Shown here one piece after another: positions 27,556 to 43,558 of a DNA stretch of 64,000 nucleotides. Every line of letters begins with the position of its first letter. Position 1 is the stretch's first letter. The stretch comes from Haloquadratum walsbyi J07HQW2 (GTDB lineage: Archaea; Halobacteriota; Halobacteria; Halobacteriales; Haloferacaceae): contig NZ_KE356561.1 in assembly GCF_000415985.1 (NCBI RefSeq), positions 112,989 through 176,988 of the forward strand, read 5' to 3'. The notes under the pieces were generated by a model, which made no database searches, was not told the origin of the DNA, and saw nothing but the letters and a program-made list of their open reading frames with translations. The translations under genes and the position numbers were made by a program.

Positions 27556-28983
27556 TCAAATCCGACTCAGTCCGGCATATATTAATAATCCAACAGGAAT
27601 AAAGAGAAACGGACCAGCTACGACTGTGAATACAATCGCAGTCGTTGCTGCGACTTTCTCAGAAACATACATTCCGATAGGAACGACAAGAAACGAGAGT
27701 GCGAGTGCGGTTGCAGCGCCCATCACAGCCAAATCGCGATCAGGTCGGTCTGTCTGGGTAACCGGAAGGTCAAGCGTCTCAACTGCTGTGTCAATGTTGC
27801 TCACTGGACCAAACTGTATGTCTCGATCAATCTTCTCAACAGTGATATCGAGCGTGCCAGTATCAAGAAGACGGTCGGAAACCGCGTTTTTCACCTCAAA
27901 CTCGGCTGTCTGCACCGGTGCAATCCACTGTGGAGCATCTAAGACGGTATCATATGCAACAATCGACTCACCACGCCGTTGATACTCGATTGTTCCATAC
28001 CGAAAATAAAAGCTCAGCACTTGGGCACCGAAGACCGCAAGTGGAATTATCATCGCAACACCGATGAGTAACGGGTCCCCGATGATGACAGCAACCGCAG
28101 GAACCACGAGCGAACCAACACCAAACCGATTGAAAACTCCCAGAATAATCGTCGAGATTGATCCTAAAAGCACCGCACGTCTGTCAGTGCTCACCCGTGC
28201 GCTCACCTCCGCATCAGGGAGCGTCAGTTCTGGTTGCGGTTCGATTTTATCCTCGTCACTGCGGGACATCTCAAACACGCGGGTGATCTGTTGACGACTG
28301 AAATCAGGCAACCCTCCGAGGATTGACGTCTCAACATGTTCGGCATAAAATCGACGCACCGAAATGATTGCTTTTATGATAACAATAAGAAAAACTAACA
28401 CACCACCGGTTGCACTGTCTCCAGCAGTACTGAGAATGCCAACAGAGAGAACAACTGCGGAAAACTGCGCTGGTGTCTGAATGATTGCTTGTGCAGAAAC
28501 ATCCACATATTCATTATCACCGATATACTCAGTTATAAATTCAAATACCTGCATACCGACTAGCGCCGCAATACTCAGAAGAATATCAACTGAAAATATG
28601 GACTCAGGACCCCCAAACCACAAAAACAGGACACTGAGAGGGGCCCCAACTGATATCCAGAGTCCAAGTATTGTGAGTGCAAATGGAATATTTCGAGGGT
28701 AGATTGGTGGCCATCGATTAAATAACTGGAGTCCCCCTCGTTTTGCGCGAAGTTCATGTAGCGGTTCCATTTTGGTCTGCAGTCCTGGCGATCCCTGCTC
28801 AGCGAAGAGTGATTTTGTGGCAGCGATGAGAACGGTCATCACTGCCTCAACCCAATAGATAAGTAAAATTGCCCGAAGATTCCACTCACCGACGACAATC
28901 CCGATCAGTGGGAGCAGGTTCACAATCAGAACACCCAACCCGCCGAACACAATCGTTGAGACTGAAAGAAGCCGATTGCGCAT
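27556..28983 (-). CDS. DUF6498-type multispan membrane protein, 475 aa
   Basis: About ten hydrophobic segments in two blocks separated by a polar region. The N-terminal block has LLIYWVEAVMTVLIAATKSL followed by FAEQ, the YWxE...K-LFA pattern of DUF6498 proteins, and the internal EFITEYIGDNEYVD region. The C-terminal half carries a soluble domain (AYDTVLDAPQWIAPVQTAEF; VEKIDRDIQFGPVSN) between helices. Divergently arranged with the 29392 gene, which shares the N-terminal pattern. Function unknown. No frameshifts. Confidence 0.75.
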   Translation of the reverse strand: MRNRLLSVSTIVFGGLGVLIVNLLPLIGIVVGEWNLRAILLIYWVEAVMTVLIAATKSLFAEQGSPGLQTKMEPLHELRAKRGGLQLFNRWPPIYPRNIPFALTILGLWISVGAPLSVLFLWFGGPESIFSVDILLSIAALVGMQVFEFITEYIGDNEYVDVSAQAIIQTPAQFSAVVLSVGILSTAGDSATGGVLVFLIVIIKAIISVRRFYAEHVETSILGGLPDFSRQQITRVFEMSRSDEDKIEPQPELTLPDAEVSARVSTDRRAVLLGSISTIILGVFNRFGVGSLVVPAVAVIIGDPLLIGVAMIIPLAVFGAQVLSFYFRYGTIEYQRRGESIVAYDTVLDAPQWIAPVQTAEFEVKNAVSDRLLDTGTLDITVEKIDRDIQFGPVSNIDTAVETLDLPVTQTDRPDRDLAVMGAATALALSFLVVPIGMYVSEKVAATTAIVFTVVAGPFLFIPVGLLIYAGLSRI

Positions 28984-29391: not shown

Positions 29392-30132
29392 ATGAGACGG
29401 ATTTCTTTATTATACGCAGCCGCCCCTGATATCAGGCTTCTCTCGGTAATCGTTGCTAACAGCGCACCAATGATTGGGATACTCGGATTTCAGACGTCGA
29501 CCGCAGCACTGCTACTGTTCTATTGGCTTGAACTTGGTGTATTGGCAATATGGGGTCTCATCAGGGCTCTCTTCGCTGGCACCGTTCCCGAAGTGAATTT
29601 TGATCAGGAGGTAATTTCGACGTCGACTCTCAAAAGATATAGCAGGTGGCGTGAGAATCACCTCACAATTCCAGGGACTGAGATTGGTATCTATTATGGA
29701 ACGATTCCGGCTTGTATTTGTTTTGTCCCCTTGCTCACCGCCGTGTGGCTTGGATTTGGCGGGTTTGTCGCTGGACCAGTCATCGTCGCAACCGACACGA
29801 CTGAGACACCACTGTGGGTAATCACCGGTGCTCTCACAGTGTTTATTTTCGAAGGTGGGCAGACGATGATTAACTATTTTTATACTGGCGGTTACCAGAA
29901 CACGAATGCGTTGATGCCAGTCAAGGGAGTGTTCTGGAAGGGTTTTGTGTTGAGTCTCGTTGGACTGTTCATTTTCATCTTTGCGAGGGAATTTGCAGAA
30001 GGCAAAACGGCTAGTATTGAGACTGCAGCCAGTACGGCAATTGTTTCATCCGTTCTCCTCTGTAAGTTTGTGATTGATCTGACGGGATACTATCACAGTG
30101 CACGTGATCAGTCACTTACAGAGAGAATCTGA
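29392..30132 (+). CDS. DUF6498-type membrane protein, 246 aa
   Basis: Six or so helices: LLSVIVANSAPMIGILGF, LLLFYWLELGVLAIWGLIR followed by ALFAG (the family's YWxE...LFA signature), CICFVPLLTAVWLGFGGFV, LWVITGALTVFIFEGGQT, GFVLSLVGLFIFIFA and STAIVSSVLLCKFVIDLTG. The loop with NYFYTGGYQNTNALMPVK matches the position of EYIGDNEYVD in the larger divergent homologue. Probably a paralogue of its N-terminal half. Intact; role unknown. Confidence 0.75.
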   Translation: MRRISLLYAAAPDIRLLSVIVANSAPMIGILGFQTSTAALLLFYWLELGVLAIWGLIRALFAGTVPEVNFDQEVISTSTLKRYSRWRENHLTIPGTEIGIYYGTIPACICFVPLLTAVWLGFGGFVAGPVIVATDTTETPLWVITGALTVFIFEGGQTMINYFYTGGYQNTNALMPVKGVFWKGFVLSLVGLFIFIFAREFAEGKTASIETAASTAIVSSVLLCKFVIDLTGYYHSARDQSLTERI

Positions 30133-34181: not shown

Positions 34182-36064
34182 TTAAGAATTCACAGATTCG
34201 GATAGCGTGTCATACGCTTCCTGAACCTCAAGGAATTCCTCTTTACTTCCGCCGGTGTCCGGGTGTGTTTCTCTGGCTCTCTCGCGATACGCAGCCTTGA
34301 TATCTTCTTGTGAGACACCGGGTTCAATCTCCAGAATTTCATATACCTCCTGCTTCGCCGCCGTCTGGTGGGCAGCCGATTGTCCCAACAACTCTTTACA
34401 CCGTGTGCAGACGTACATCGACTCCCCACTGGGATCGGTGACCTCATGCAGGTCCCTCTATATTCTTGACCGCAGCTCATACAGAATTGACTCGTCTAGC
34501 CTCCTGATTCTCCTCTTGAACTCCCATAGCTATCTTGATTGGCACGCCCGGTATTAGTCGAATTGTCAGCGGAGTGTTGATACCCTGTGCGACGTTGCGA
34601 AGAGGTTCCGGATCCACCACTAAATGAGTGATTCCGAGACGCACCGCTTGGCGGGCTAATCGGTGCTTTCGTCAGCATTTCAAGCAATTCCTGACCATTT
34701 ATCAGTCCCACGCTTGCTTCATAACTCTGGCTGACTGAGCAGTCTTAGCAAAACTGGACGAGGTAACGACGATGCCCTTGCTAGCGTTCACTTGGTCAAG
34801 CGCACCAGCCAGTCGTTGAATTGTCGGTCGACCTATCTTGTTCCCCTGAGAGTATTGCTTTAGTTGAATTGCCAGGGTTTCGGTCTTTCCTCTCGCTGTT
34901 ACGTCGGTGCCCTTGTCGTTAGTTGCCTGGCTGACCTGGGTATCATATCCCTGTGATTCGTACAGCGACGCGACTAAATGTTCGAATTCTATCGGGGTGA
35001 ATTCCCCGAAGTGCTCACGACGCCAGACGCCAGCATTCAAGTTTTTAACGAGTGTCGCCAGTTCCTCCAACTCATCTAGTGAGAGCTTACTGAGAGAATA
35101 TCGAAGATCTGCCTGCAACTTTTCCGGCGAAATCGCCGTGTATTGGAGATTCAGTGTTTTTCGCTTCGATTCGACGATCGTAGCCTTGTTGAGAACCTGT
35201 TAACCCTTTTGAGATTTCGGGTGGCAGCCTCCCTGGATTTGAGTGACTTGTTCAACTTGTCGAGAATCCCACTCAAATCATAGCTTCGTAATGTGGATTG
35301 AGCGGACTGATAGTCCGAAATAGCGGTAGCTGCGGCTTCACAATATGCTATATCTGATTCATCGGGCTCAACGTTCGGCGTCATGAGTGAGTCGATGAGA
35401 TTACTCATCTTCTCAGTGTCGACCGAAGATACAGAGCTGTTGACCTGGTCTCGAAGTGTTGTGAACTCAATCATAGTCTCCAACTGGTCAAGTTTCTGTG
35501 CCACCGCATCGAACTCTTCCGCCGAAATTTCCTCTTTGAGCGCTGTAGTCCATTCTTGCTGCAATCCATCAGAAACAGACTCTAGATCACTGGATGCACC
35601 TCGGAGGCGCGGCGCCACATCAGTTGCCACTCTAACGGTTGTCTGTAGGTCATCGTAGTCATCTTCGCGCACCCATCCAGCAGTCACAGATCGCCCAAGA
35701 CGGGCATCAGAAAGGTGGTCAGCGGCGTGCGTAGCGGTTTGGATAAGTTCGTCAGGAGCAGTCCTTTGAGAACACCTTCGGAGATGGGGTAGACCGTTGT
35801 TAGTTCATTGACCAGCTCCTGGAACTGGTGCCGCTTGTGCTCGTGTGTCGCTCGACGCCCGGCAACGTACGCCGTGCCGAGACCAGTCGTCCACACAGCC
35901 CCATCGCCTCTACCCCTCAGAGTTTCAGCCTGATTGAGAGCCTCGGATGCTTTCTCATAGTTCTGATCCTCAACCTCATTTTCCGCAGTAGTTAATGTTT
36001 TTTTAACTGGGCGGGTTGACTATCGAGGTCCCCCAACGTAGACGTACTCTTGAGATTTTGTCAT
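34182..36064 (-). pseudogene. Coiled-coil/Mrr nuclease/zinc/J-domain fusion, multiply frameshifted
   Basis: Read across frames the gene gives about 620 aa. An N-terminal helical region (NEVEDQNYEKASEALNQAET; WTTGLGTAYVAGRRATHEHK) is followed by a coiled-coil segment (TAGWVREDDYDDLQTTVRVA; KLDQLETMIEFTTLRDQVNS) and an Mrr-cat domain (FTPIEFEHLVASLYESQGYD; NDKGTDVTARGK with catalytic Asp; IQLKQY with Gln-x-Lys; GIVVTSSSFAKTAQSARVM). Then come a Gly/Ser linker, a Cys4-type zinc element (CMSCGQEYRG ... YVCTRCKELLG) and a C-terminal J-domain with HPD (REVYEIL-like start; ARETHPDTGGSKEEF). Breaks include an A7 run near 36000 and shifts near 35688, 35120 and 34700, plus a TAG. The ATG overlaps the upstream gene's TGA. 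Confidence 0.8.
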
Positions 36065-37281
36065 TTGCTCAGAACCCGACTCCGCTTCCCCTGGAAGGCG
36101 GCAATCCAGCCACCACTGACACAGTACATTGTCCCATCGACTCTTAGTGTATAGCCTCCGTGCGTCCCTGCAAACATAGAATTCCAAACACGGCTGCCCG
36201 TCGCCGCATCAAAGGCGTGGAAATTCCCGTTCTGATCGCCGAGCTACAGCAATTTTTGATCGTATGTCAATCGCGATGCCGGTGGGATTCGTTGCCGCCA
36301 GTCGATTTCCCCGGTGGATGGATTATAAGCGAAGACCCGCTGGTCGGCTGTATAAAAAATATGTGTGTCGCTAGTCGAGAGACCGGAGAGCTTTGACCCC
36401 ATTGTATGCTCACATTGAATTTTACCAGAAGATGCATCATAGCCATAGAGCGTGCCGTCCGTGGACCCTACAATAACGACATCCTGCGTGATTGGCGGAT
36501 AAACGTCTGCGATCTTTCGGTCTTCAGAGCGCCATTTGATTTTACCAGACTCAGCGTCCCTGACAACAGCCCGCCCACCGAATTGTGTTGAAGGAGCAGA
36601 GCCGTCTACCGTCGCCATCTCTCTGTAGTCTCGTAGAGGGTGCCATCATATTCAACGATCTGACCGGCTCCCCCGAATCGTCGTGTGACGCTCCATTTCT
36701 GGGTCCCACTTTTGCTGTAAGCATAGAGAGTCCCAGTGAAGGTTTCAAACGTTTCGTCGTACTCGCCAGTTCTGTCCCAGGTATAATCAGAAAACCAGAC
36801 CATGTCACCATCAGTTGCCACATCCTGGGTGTATCCCTCATCTATTTGAACGTCCCAGTTTGGCTCATTGGGTTCGGACTCAAGTCCGTATGCTAGGAAT
36901 TGCTTGTTCCCACATGCAAACAACTTGTGCCCAGTGAAAACTGGGGAGCTAAGAGATTCAATATAAGATGATTCCCAGAGGAGATCATTACTCCCTTTCT
37001 CGAGAGCAAGGATACGGGAGCCTCCGACACCATCTCGGATTGATTTTGTGAGGTATATCGTATCCTGTTGAATTCCGCTTGAATCTAGAGTTCACATTAT
37101 CGCCACGAGTATTCTCTGCTACCTGTAACTCCCAGAGCTGCTCAAATGGAAGTCCTATCGGATAACCCTCTTTTTCCTTTGTTGATTGACCTGTAGTATC
37201 TCCTATAAGAACCGAAGAGTCAAGAAAGCCCGAAATGCTCCCGAGGAACGAACGACGGGCACCTTTCATGGAACAATTCAT
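36061..37281 (-). pseudogene. Tat-signal beta-propeller (PQQ-type repeat) protein, frameshifted
   Basis: ATG 37281: MNCSMKGARRSFLGSISGFL, a twin-Arg signal. Blade-like repeats follow in shifting frames: GYTQDVATDGDMVWFSDYTW, GTLYAYSKSGTQKWSVTRRF, AVVRDAESGKIKWRSEDRKI, VVIVGSTDGTLYGYDASSGK and VFAYNPSTGEIDWRQRI. These are PQQ/pyrrolo-quinoline-type seven- or eight-blade repeats (G-x-LYAxD-x-x-TG-x-x-W). The last frame ends GGWIAAFQGKRSRVLSK at a TGA that overlaps the ATG of the Mrr/J gene. Full length about 400 aa. Probably anchored outside the cell if functional; here at least three frameshifts. Confidence 0.75.
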
Positions 37282-42178: not shown

Positions 42179-43558
42179 TTATTCAGGTAATGGTCCTGGG
42201 AATCCTCCCTCAGGCTTCATATCAAATACTGTTTCGTATGAGTCCTCAAACACGCGATCAAACGCCGTCACTAATCTCTCATCACGACAAAATTCCTCGA
42301 CTGCCCGTTCAAGCTGTCCGAAATACGATTCCGTTAGATTGTTCGGATCTAGCGGGTATGTTTTCTTCACAAGACCAGAGGCACTGTGAAGTCTGGATTC
42401 AATACCATCGATGTGATCAAGGGCTTCCTGTATCTGTTCGTTGTACTCACCGGTGCACTTCTCAGCAAATACATCATTGAATGATTGCTCGCCGTCATGG
42501 TGATCTTTCGTGTGGACATTTCTCGCCGGAGGGAGCCGAAGTCGAAATATGAATTGTTGATTCCGGATTGATTCGATTGTTGGAGAATGTCGAAAAAAGA
42601 GCTTGATTGTACTCGACTGATTAACTGGGTCTTGGTCCCAATACGCTGGGAAGATTGATTGCCACTTCGGAGTGCTGGATGGTGATGTTTTCCAGCCTGA
42701 GTTCTCGAAGTCGAATTTATATTGAACTTTGTTCTCCCAACTATCTATCAGATACGTGCTTACGTTCTCAAAATCACTTTCGAATTGGCTGTTCGCCTTC
42801 TCAACTTGTCGAATGAGTCTATCGTGCTCGAAATAGAGATTTAACCGCTCGTTGAGTTCGTCGGTATCGATATCTGAGTCCATCCCCTCTGTCTCCTTTA
42901 GTGATTGAATGAAGTCCGTGAACTGAATAACACTCCGGTTAGGGTAGTCGTACAGCGAATCTTGAACCTCAGATTCGAATTGGTCAACTATATCGCTCCA
43001 ACTGAGAGTCTCAAACGTGTTGGTTATGTCCGTGGGTTGACCTGCCGCTTCTCGTTTCAGATACACAAAGTGACTCTCATCTAGCTGATTTACATTCAAT
43101 TCATTGCTCTCAAACCAATTAAAATTCCAGTTATCCGCTTTAGAGTATGATGTTGTTTGCCCATCGCCTTCTTTCGCTCCGACTTTTAATTCCATGAACA
43201 CTGCCCATCGAGGATGCTCAGATAACGCGCTCCCACCGGCAATGATAAGATCGATGCGTCGTTCTGAGCCTTCGTCTGCAATTGAGACCTCCTCGCTGAT
43301 TTCGATATGTTGGCTGCTCAGGTTGAATTCATTCATACCAACTTCGGCAAGAAATGGCTCGAGAAGTGCGTATCCGAACCCATGAGGTTTCCGTGGATTC
43401 AGAAAATATTGTAAGGCATTTTGATACTGCCGTTCTCTGGGTCCTCGGAGAATAGAGAAGATACCCGAGGGCTGTTGGGACCCTTGATCAAGACTCATGT
43501 ACTGCTGAATGAACGCTTCTAATTCGGTAGCATCGAAATCAAATACATCTTCACTCAT
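42179..43558 (-). CDS. PD-(D/E)XK nuclease family protein, 459 aa
   Basis: N-terminal nuclease domain with RERQYQNALQYFLNPRKPHG, RRIDLIIAGG (Asp103), FMELKVGAKEGDGQTTSYSK (Glu123, Lys125, then Gln and Tyr), the layout of the PDDEXK_4 group. The remaining 300 residues are acidic and helical (DTDELNERLNLYFEHDRLIR; SWENKVQYKFDFENSGWKT) with no known domain. Intact, unlike most nuclease genes here. Related proteins occur as solitary or phage-defence-associated genes. Weak spot: no partner gene nearby, and repeats on both sides. Upstream spacer AT-rich. Confidence 0.85.
   Translation of the reverse strand: MSEDVFDFDATELEAFIQQYMSLDQGSQQPSGIFSILRGPRERQYQNALQYFLNPRKPHGFGYALLEPFLAEVGMNEFNLSSQHIEISEEVSIADEGSERRIDLIIAGGSALSEHPRWAVFMELKVGAKEGDGQTTSYSKADNWNFNWFESNELNVNQLDESHFVYLKREAAGQPTDITNTFETLSWSDIVDQFESEVQDSLYDYPNRSVIQFTDFIQSLKETEGMDSDIDTDELNERLNLYFEHDRLIRQVEKANSQFESDFENVSTYLIDSWENKVQYKFDFENSGWKTSPSSTPKWQSIFPAYWDQDPVNQSSTIKLFFRHSPTIESIRNQQFIFRLRLPPARNVHTKDHHDGEQSFNDVFAEKCTGEYNEQIQEALDHIDGIESRLHSASGLVKKTYPLDPNNLTESYFGQLERAVEEFCRDERLVTAFDRVFEDSYETVFDMKPEGGFPGPLPE

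Follow-up and report, generated by a model that had tools for sequence, protein, structure and literature searches.

The locus and its domains

The locus lies on the minus strand of the window, i.e. the entire 64,000-nucleotide stretch of Haloquadratum walsbyi J07HQW2 analysed here. Read in three frames from 37281 down to 34182, it yields a single co-linear protein of ~1,040 residues whose coding frame runs 3-1-3-2-1-2-3-2-1. The eight frameshifts are accompanied by three in-frame stops (36244-36246, 36061-36063 and 34496-34498), in agreement with the decay claimed in the original prediction. The same protein is found as a single intact ORF in homologues, to which the window copy displays up to 28-30% identity over its length. 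Matches to PQQ_2, Mrr_cat and DnaJ on the minus-strand fragments are far above chance. Judged from its sequence, the locus is the wreck of one large haloarchaeal gene, and the window copy is dead.

The N-terminus (37200-37269, with the start ATG at 37269 or 37281) carries the twin-arginine motif ARRSFLG, a Tat-like signal. It is followed by a PQQ_2/BamB-like beta-propeller (36061-37190), which is intact in the homologues and here contains two frameshifts and the first of the stops, a TAG; its fragment at 36244-36618 matches Pfam PQQ_2 with E 2.5e-11. Next is a frameshifted helical stalk (35120-35990), comprising a TPR-like hairpin and coiled-coil-like helices and recognised through tblastn-type matches to intact homologues (9.6e-18 in G250 and 1.8e-7 in G218). 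At 35858-35902, a position common to the PQQ-type members, an uncharged segment of 15 residues, GAVWTTGLGTAYVAG, precedes a basic cluster and represents a putative membrane span. The Mrr_cat nuclease domain (34732-35004; Pfam E 2e-23) holds the D...QxK motif (GTDVTARGKTETLAIQLK) and is 47-50% identical to the homologues L043, L044 and L073. The last stop, again a TAG, separates it from a zinc-knuckle-like Cys4 element (CMSC...CTRC, 34398-34483), consisting of two CxxC pairs with one internal frameshift. The protein ends in a J-domain (34194-34346; HPD at 34257-34265), with a Pfam DnaJ score of 55.8 bits (E 5.1e-15, cut-off 27.8).

Intact homologues

Relatives were found using the helical stalk as query instead of the generic Mrr domain. 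Homologues obtained with an Mrr query lacked J-domain and propeller, which seemed to refute the finding, and the stalk query then gave the true relatives. Stalk-search matches in G307 and G033 proved to be unrelated frames and the G224 match a repeat protein; those in G481 and G325 were left out of membership.

Four intact haloarchaeal homologues of 1008-1046 aa bear a J-domain, each as a single ORF: L043 (1015 aa), L044 (1008 aa), the Halorubrum salinum GX71 protein (about 1020 aa; L058/L059, the same as L072/L073) and L060 (1046 aa; WP_254538329.1), encoded on plasmid unnamed1 of Halomarina sp. BCD28 and annotated 'restriction endonuclease'. Near the ends of two contigs, in opposite orientation, lie identical copies of the H. 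salinum gene together with several kb of flanking sequence, which represent a large repeat or an assembly duplication. Six homologues are J-less and end after Mrr (L061, L062, L117, L118, L141 and L142); L117 is 98% identical to L062, and apart from this pair identities are about 20-48%. In the J-bearing proteins, the order is twin-arginine motif, BamB/PQQ-type propeller, helical stalk, Mrr, low-complexity linker, usually a Cys4 knuckle (in L043, L058 and L060, absent from L044) and J-domain with HPD; the window copy keeps this order, but its reading frame is broken. The proposed fusion of Mrr, Cys4 and J-domain in one protein is hence confirmed, as is a propeller conserved upstream of Mrr, which shares the ORF in J-bearing and J-less homologues alike. 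The search for intact haloarchaeal homologues that the original prediction suggested recovered the expected order, but within single ORFs and with no separate upstream propeller gene. Neither of the observations that it had named as contrary was made: Mrr and J-domain are fused in the four intact homologues rather than always separate, and the propeller is present.

Mrr_cat (PF04471) scores 83.1 bits in the window and 76-109 bits in the homologues against a cut-off of 21, and the catalytic D...(E/Q)xK motif is retained in all members (GIDVVA...IQAK and equivalents, with ExK in L060); the Mrr_N winged-helix domain of classical Mrr has no Pfam match in any of them. Mrr_cat proteins are restriction nucleases, and the family is mainly one of restriction. 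The J-domains, all with HPD, reach 41-56 bits, over the DnaJ cut-off given above, and J-domains of this kind stimulate Hsp70. The canonical DnaJ layout (N-terminal J, G/F region, CxxCxGxG repeats and C-terminal substrate domain) is not seen; instead, the J-domain is located at the C-terminal end, preceded by only two CxxC pairs. The canonical DnaJ of the window's genome is found elsewhere (L001), and this genome also encodes two apparently membrane-anchored proteins with hydrophobic segments and a C-terminal J-domain (L002 and L005), as well as a fusion of a J-domain and a ferredoxin-like protein (L004, 925-1728, minus strand).

PQQ_2, Mrr_cat and DnaJ exceed the curated Pfam cut-offs, in this order, in L043, L044, L060 and L073. 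What had been called a PQQ-type propeller is one in fold, with a BamB-like PQQ_2 match above cut-off, but not in the sense of a PQQ dehydrogenase, as the NCBIfam dehydrogenase models remain far below theirs. A search of solved structures agrees with Pfam, returning J-domains for the C-terminal end and, at profile positions about 230-390, designed and BamB propellers. An AlphaFold model of the H. salinum homologue (L073), based on a shallow alignment, has a mean pLDDT of 47 and is reliable only in sections of Mrr and in the zinc-J region, the rest being poor; in the latter region block pLDDT values are mostly 80-94, and a zinc ribbon before the J-domain is modelled confidently. The predicted Tat-like propeller N-terminus is likewise supported, by an RR motif detected by inspection in 11 of 11 members. 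RR signals lead to Tat export, which is hence predicted for the family.

One broken gene

The original prediction described two translationally coupled genes joined at an ATGA, which would make up a two-component system with the propeller exported by Tat and the Mrr-zinc-J protein on its own in the cytosol. This overlap exists (36061-36064, minus strand), but the coding signal past the TGA keeps the propeller frame (QNLKSTSTLGDLDSQPAQLKK) up to the following shift, and translation from the ATG meets a stop after 14 codons. Moreover, all ten intact homologues, including four of four with a J-domain, continue across this point as one ORF, which begins with the twin-arginine region and finishes with Mrr or J. 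The TGA (36061-36063) is therefore an in-frame nonsense codon rather than a gene junction, and a coupled gene pair is extremely unlikely. Could the gene instead be intact in the organism, the shifts being sequencing or assembly errors? One shift sits at an A7 run, each fragment keeps high protein similarity and N runs are present elsewhere in the assembly, all as errors would have it. We nevertheless regard this as improbable, since three nonsense codons occur in addition to the shifts and since, where this assembly is gene-dense, ORFs are long and intact and the frame seldom switches. Judged from sampled 20-kb stretches, ORFs of at least 150 aa cover 0.65-0.84 of most gene-dense stretches compared to 0.25-0.41 of the window, the whole of which is a low-coding region; a dicodon model trained on the same genome finds 15.6 frame switches per 10 kb in the broken gene compared to 0.6-4.1 in gene-dense stretches. 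We thus favour local pseudogene decay over sequencing error as the likelier cause. The same genome contains, outside the window, another stalk-Mrr copy that is likewise degenerate and interrupted by in-frame stops (G000 contig 1, ~483839-484544; L126).

Distribution and gene neighbourhood

The propeller type is present in seven of 391 genomes of the class, the broken copy of the window included, with the J-domain in G000, G218, G250, G415 and G419 and without it in G421 and G291. Family-wide searches of 146, 170 and 125 genomes (overlapping samples) added further members, and 28 genomes of a fourth family yielded none, a weak negative. A search of 393 genomes from across the phylum (E<=1e-15) detected no Mrr-J fusion outside the propeller-Mrr family, and a plasmid search none apart from that of Halomarina. 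A scan of genome contigs returned only H. salinum and one J-only match, and viral contigs and phage records only Mrr proteins lacking propeller, stalk and J-domain.

In a tree of the shared part (propeller through Mrr), the J-bearing forms come together with 99/96 support, in a group that also encloses the J-less L118 and L141 as neighbours of L073. The presence of the J-domain requires two changes on this tree, for example one gain and one loss, with several long branches and unsure details. As closely related members lack it, the J-domain is, on this phylogenetic evidence, an accessory module, and haloarchaea seem to append J-domains to proteins frequently. The stalk-Mrr module also occurs with other N-termini, namely multi-TM, extracellular plus TM, TPR-like or helix-hairpin-helix (L119-L123 and L012), and may define a larger haloarchaeal family of sensor-Mrr proteins.

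No partner gene is conserved among the loci, except for the near-identical L062/L117 loci, and the neighbourhood consequently gives no direct functional link. Defence-type neighbours are nonetheless found at some loci: two DUF1156 methylases (Hma-like) at L043, a KAP/QatA-like ATPase at L058, an HNH gene at L060, and a PLD nuclease and a second Mrr at L117. Other neighbourhoods are not defence-like, with metal and sugar genes near L060. Divergent to the J-less propeller-Mrr gene, two species carry a gene whose 604-aa product belongs to no known Pfam family (L117:2733-4547, minus strand, and L062:12293-14107). The window itself also contains, 5 kb from the broken gene, an intact ORF for a PDDEXK_4 nuclease-superfamily protein of 459 aa (42179-43558, minus strand), as well as two DUF6498 genes close to each other in opposite orientation (27556-28983 and 29392-30132).

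Membrane topology and function

In all members, the uncharged segment with its basic cluster behind lies between propeller and stalk, after the TPR-like hairpin. The segment has exactly 15 residues in the J-bearing forms, the window copy among them, and 18-19 in L061, L062 and L117. Its hydrophobicity is weak or marginal in most members (KD17 0.86-1.57), and shuffled sequences reach an equal run length in 11-30% of trials for four J-type members, i.e. run length alone is weak evidence for a membrane span there. However, L142 has a canonical TM helix at the same position (KD19 1.85), the stalk-Mrr relatives L122 and L123 have strong multi-TM N-termini (KD19 2.4-2.5), and L125 (5762-7990), a Tat-propeller-coil protein without Mrr, ends in a similar weak membrane segment. 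Together with the conserved position, these observations argue for a membrane span, and a single-pass protein with the propeller outside and nuclease and J-domain inside fits best. L125 may also be where the sensor half came from. DnaK is present in five of five J-bearing genomes and is of the ordinary cytosolic kind.

Three other views of the protein need to be weighed. It may be entirely cytosolic with the RR motif unused and the propeller serving for recognition inside the cell, as it conceivably does in the Mrr-propeller protein of E. coli, for which the available part of the report mentions no export (PMC9519451). The weak hydrophobicity of the segment would agree with this, and the cytosol suits J-domain and Cys4. 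We consider it unlikely, as the twin-arginine motif is kept in all 11 members across three families and as the TM helix of L142, the TM-bearing relatives of the stalk-Mrr module and the terminal segment of L125 point to the membrane. That everything past the Tat signal is exported, with the nuclease outside (acting for example on external DNA) and the J-domain not used with DnaK, would be compatible with the RR motif and the absence of a strong TM helix in most members. The HPD and J fold are, however, retained in all J-bearing members although their DnaK genes are of the cytosolic kind, and the Cys4 knuckle, the positive cluster after the segment and L142 also speak against export of the whole protein, which we deem highly improbable. 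Finally, a membrane-anchored nuclease could act in housekeeping or under stress (in envelope stress, DNA uptake or DNA repair) and not in defence against viruses or plasmids. The absence of a conserved defence partner, the metal and sugar genes near L060 and a gene near L061 that by eye is UvrA-like would fit such a role; rarity, patchiness, plasmid location and decay do not suit it, nor does a family, Mrr_cat, that is mainly restriction, which makes it a rather doubtful explanation.

With moderate confidence we thus take the locus to be the pseudogene of one gene whose product, an Mrr-type nuclease of ~1,000 residues anchored in the membrane by a single pass, would sense events outside the cell and recruit DnaK through its J-domain. 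Based on the patchy presence, the plasmid location in Halomarina and the defence-type neighbours at some loci, its function is most likely a patchy, plasmid- or island-borne defence of the restriction type. We propose the following mechanism. The propeller would be exported through Tat, the uncharged segment behind it would span the membrane, and the positive charges that follow would hold the remainder, from the stalk through nuclease and zinc knuckle to the J-domain, on the cytosolic side, where DnaK is also located. Outside, the propeller may sense a surface event, i.e. a virion, envelope damage or incoming DNA machinery, and the stalk may relay the signal to the Mrr domain, which would then cut incoming or modified DNA near the membrane. 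Recruitment of DnaK by the J-domain could hold the nuclease off, or remodel the nuclease or its target, i.e. the nuclease may be controlled through chaperone recruitment. Only tentatively do we suggest the complete form of this proposal, a transmembrane restriction receptor encoded by one gene, in which an exported propeller acts through membrane helix and stalk on a cytosolic Mrr domain gated by DnaK via its own J-domain.

Relation to known systems

An E. coli anti-phage system consists of a single protein with an N-terminal Mrr domain and a 7-bladed beta-propeller (Vassallo et al. 2022, PMC9519451), and thus likewise combines an Mrr-family nuclease and a propeller in single-gene defence. As described there, it is set apart by its bacterial origin and its order, which is reversed in the haloarchaeal proteins, and the accessible part of the description includes no Tat signal, membrane span, helical stalk or J-domain. 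From the same source, a bacterial membrane-anchored coiled-coil protein that cleaves DNA in anti-phage defence shares the membrane anchor, central coiled coil and C-terminal nuclease in one protein, but as described has neither exported propeller nor J-domain; DUF4041 was not detected by Pfam in the haloarchaeal propeller-Mrr proteins. Type IV restriction enzymes of the Mrr kind, including Haloferax volcanii Mrr, which lowers transformation by GATC-methylated plasmids (PMC6471742), have the same Mrr_cat domain with D...QxK. Classical Mrr is, however, short, whereas the nuclease here lies towards the C-terminus of a protein of 900-1,050 residues that includes propeller and stalk. The PADLOC models PDC-S02, mREase_IV and ZorD match the Mrr part only (best E 2.5e-21), leaving out propeller, most of the stalk and J-domain, and describe different proteins; for PDC-S02, the match is confined to the C-terminal half of the models, which contains Mrr.

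Links between restriction or phage sensing and chaperones have precedents as well. The CoCoNuT type IV restriction systems (PMC11090510) also include a chaperone-machine element, which is an Hsp70-like domain within a McrBC GTPase system, as opposed to the J-domain and Mrr of the haloarchaeal proteins. bNACHT25, which needs host DnaJ for sensing (PMC12169576), similarly ties Hsp40/Hsp70 machinery to anti-phage sensing, but uses host DnaJ in trans, whereas the haloarchaeal J-domain is built into the nuclease protein. In the literature searched (Mrr with DnaJ, propeller or haloarchaea), no description of the propeller-Mrr-J architecture was found. Its parts are known, with bacterial precedents for Mrr-propeller and membrane-anchored nucleases, and what we did not find described is the combination of exported sensor, nuclease and J-domain. 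Current annotation hides this architecture, as the NCBI label reads merely 'restriction endonuclease'.

Restriction nucleases are normally cytosolic and recognise DNA itself. If our proposal is true, an exported sensor would be connected through the membrane with an Mrr nuclease, the J-domain being an optional part, and restriction would be activated outside-in. Such activation, as well as chaperone control of the nuclease, would be directly testable in genetically tractable haloarchaea.
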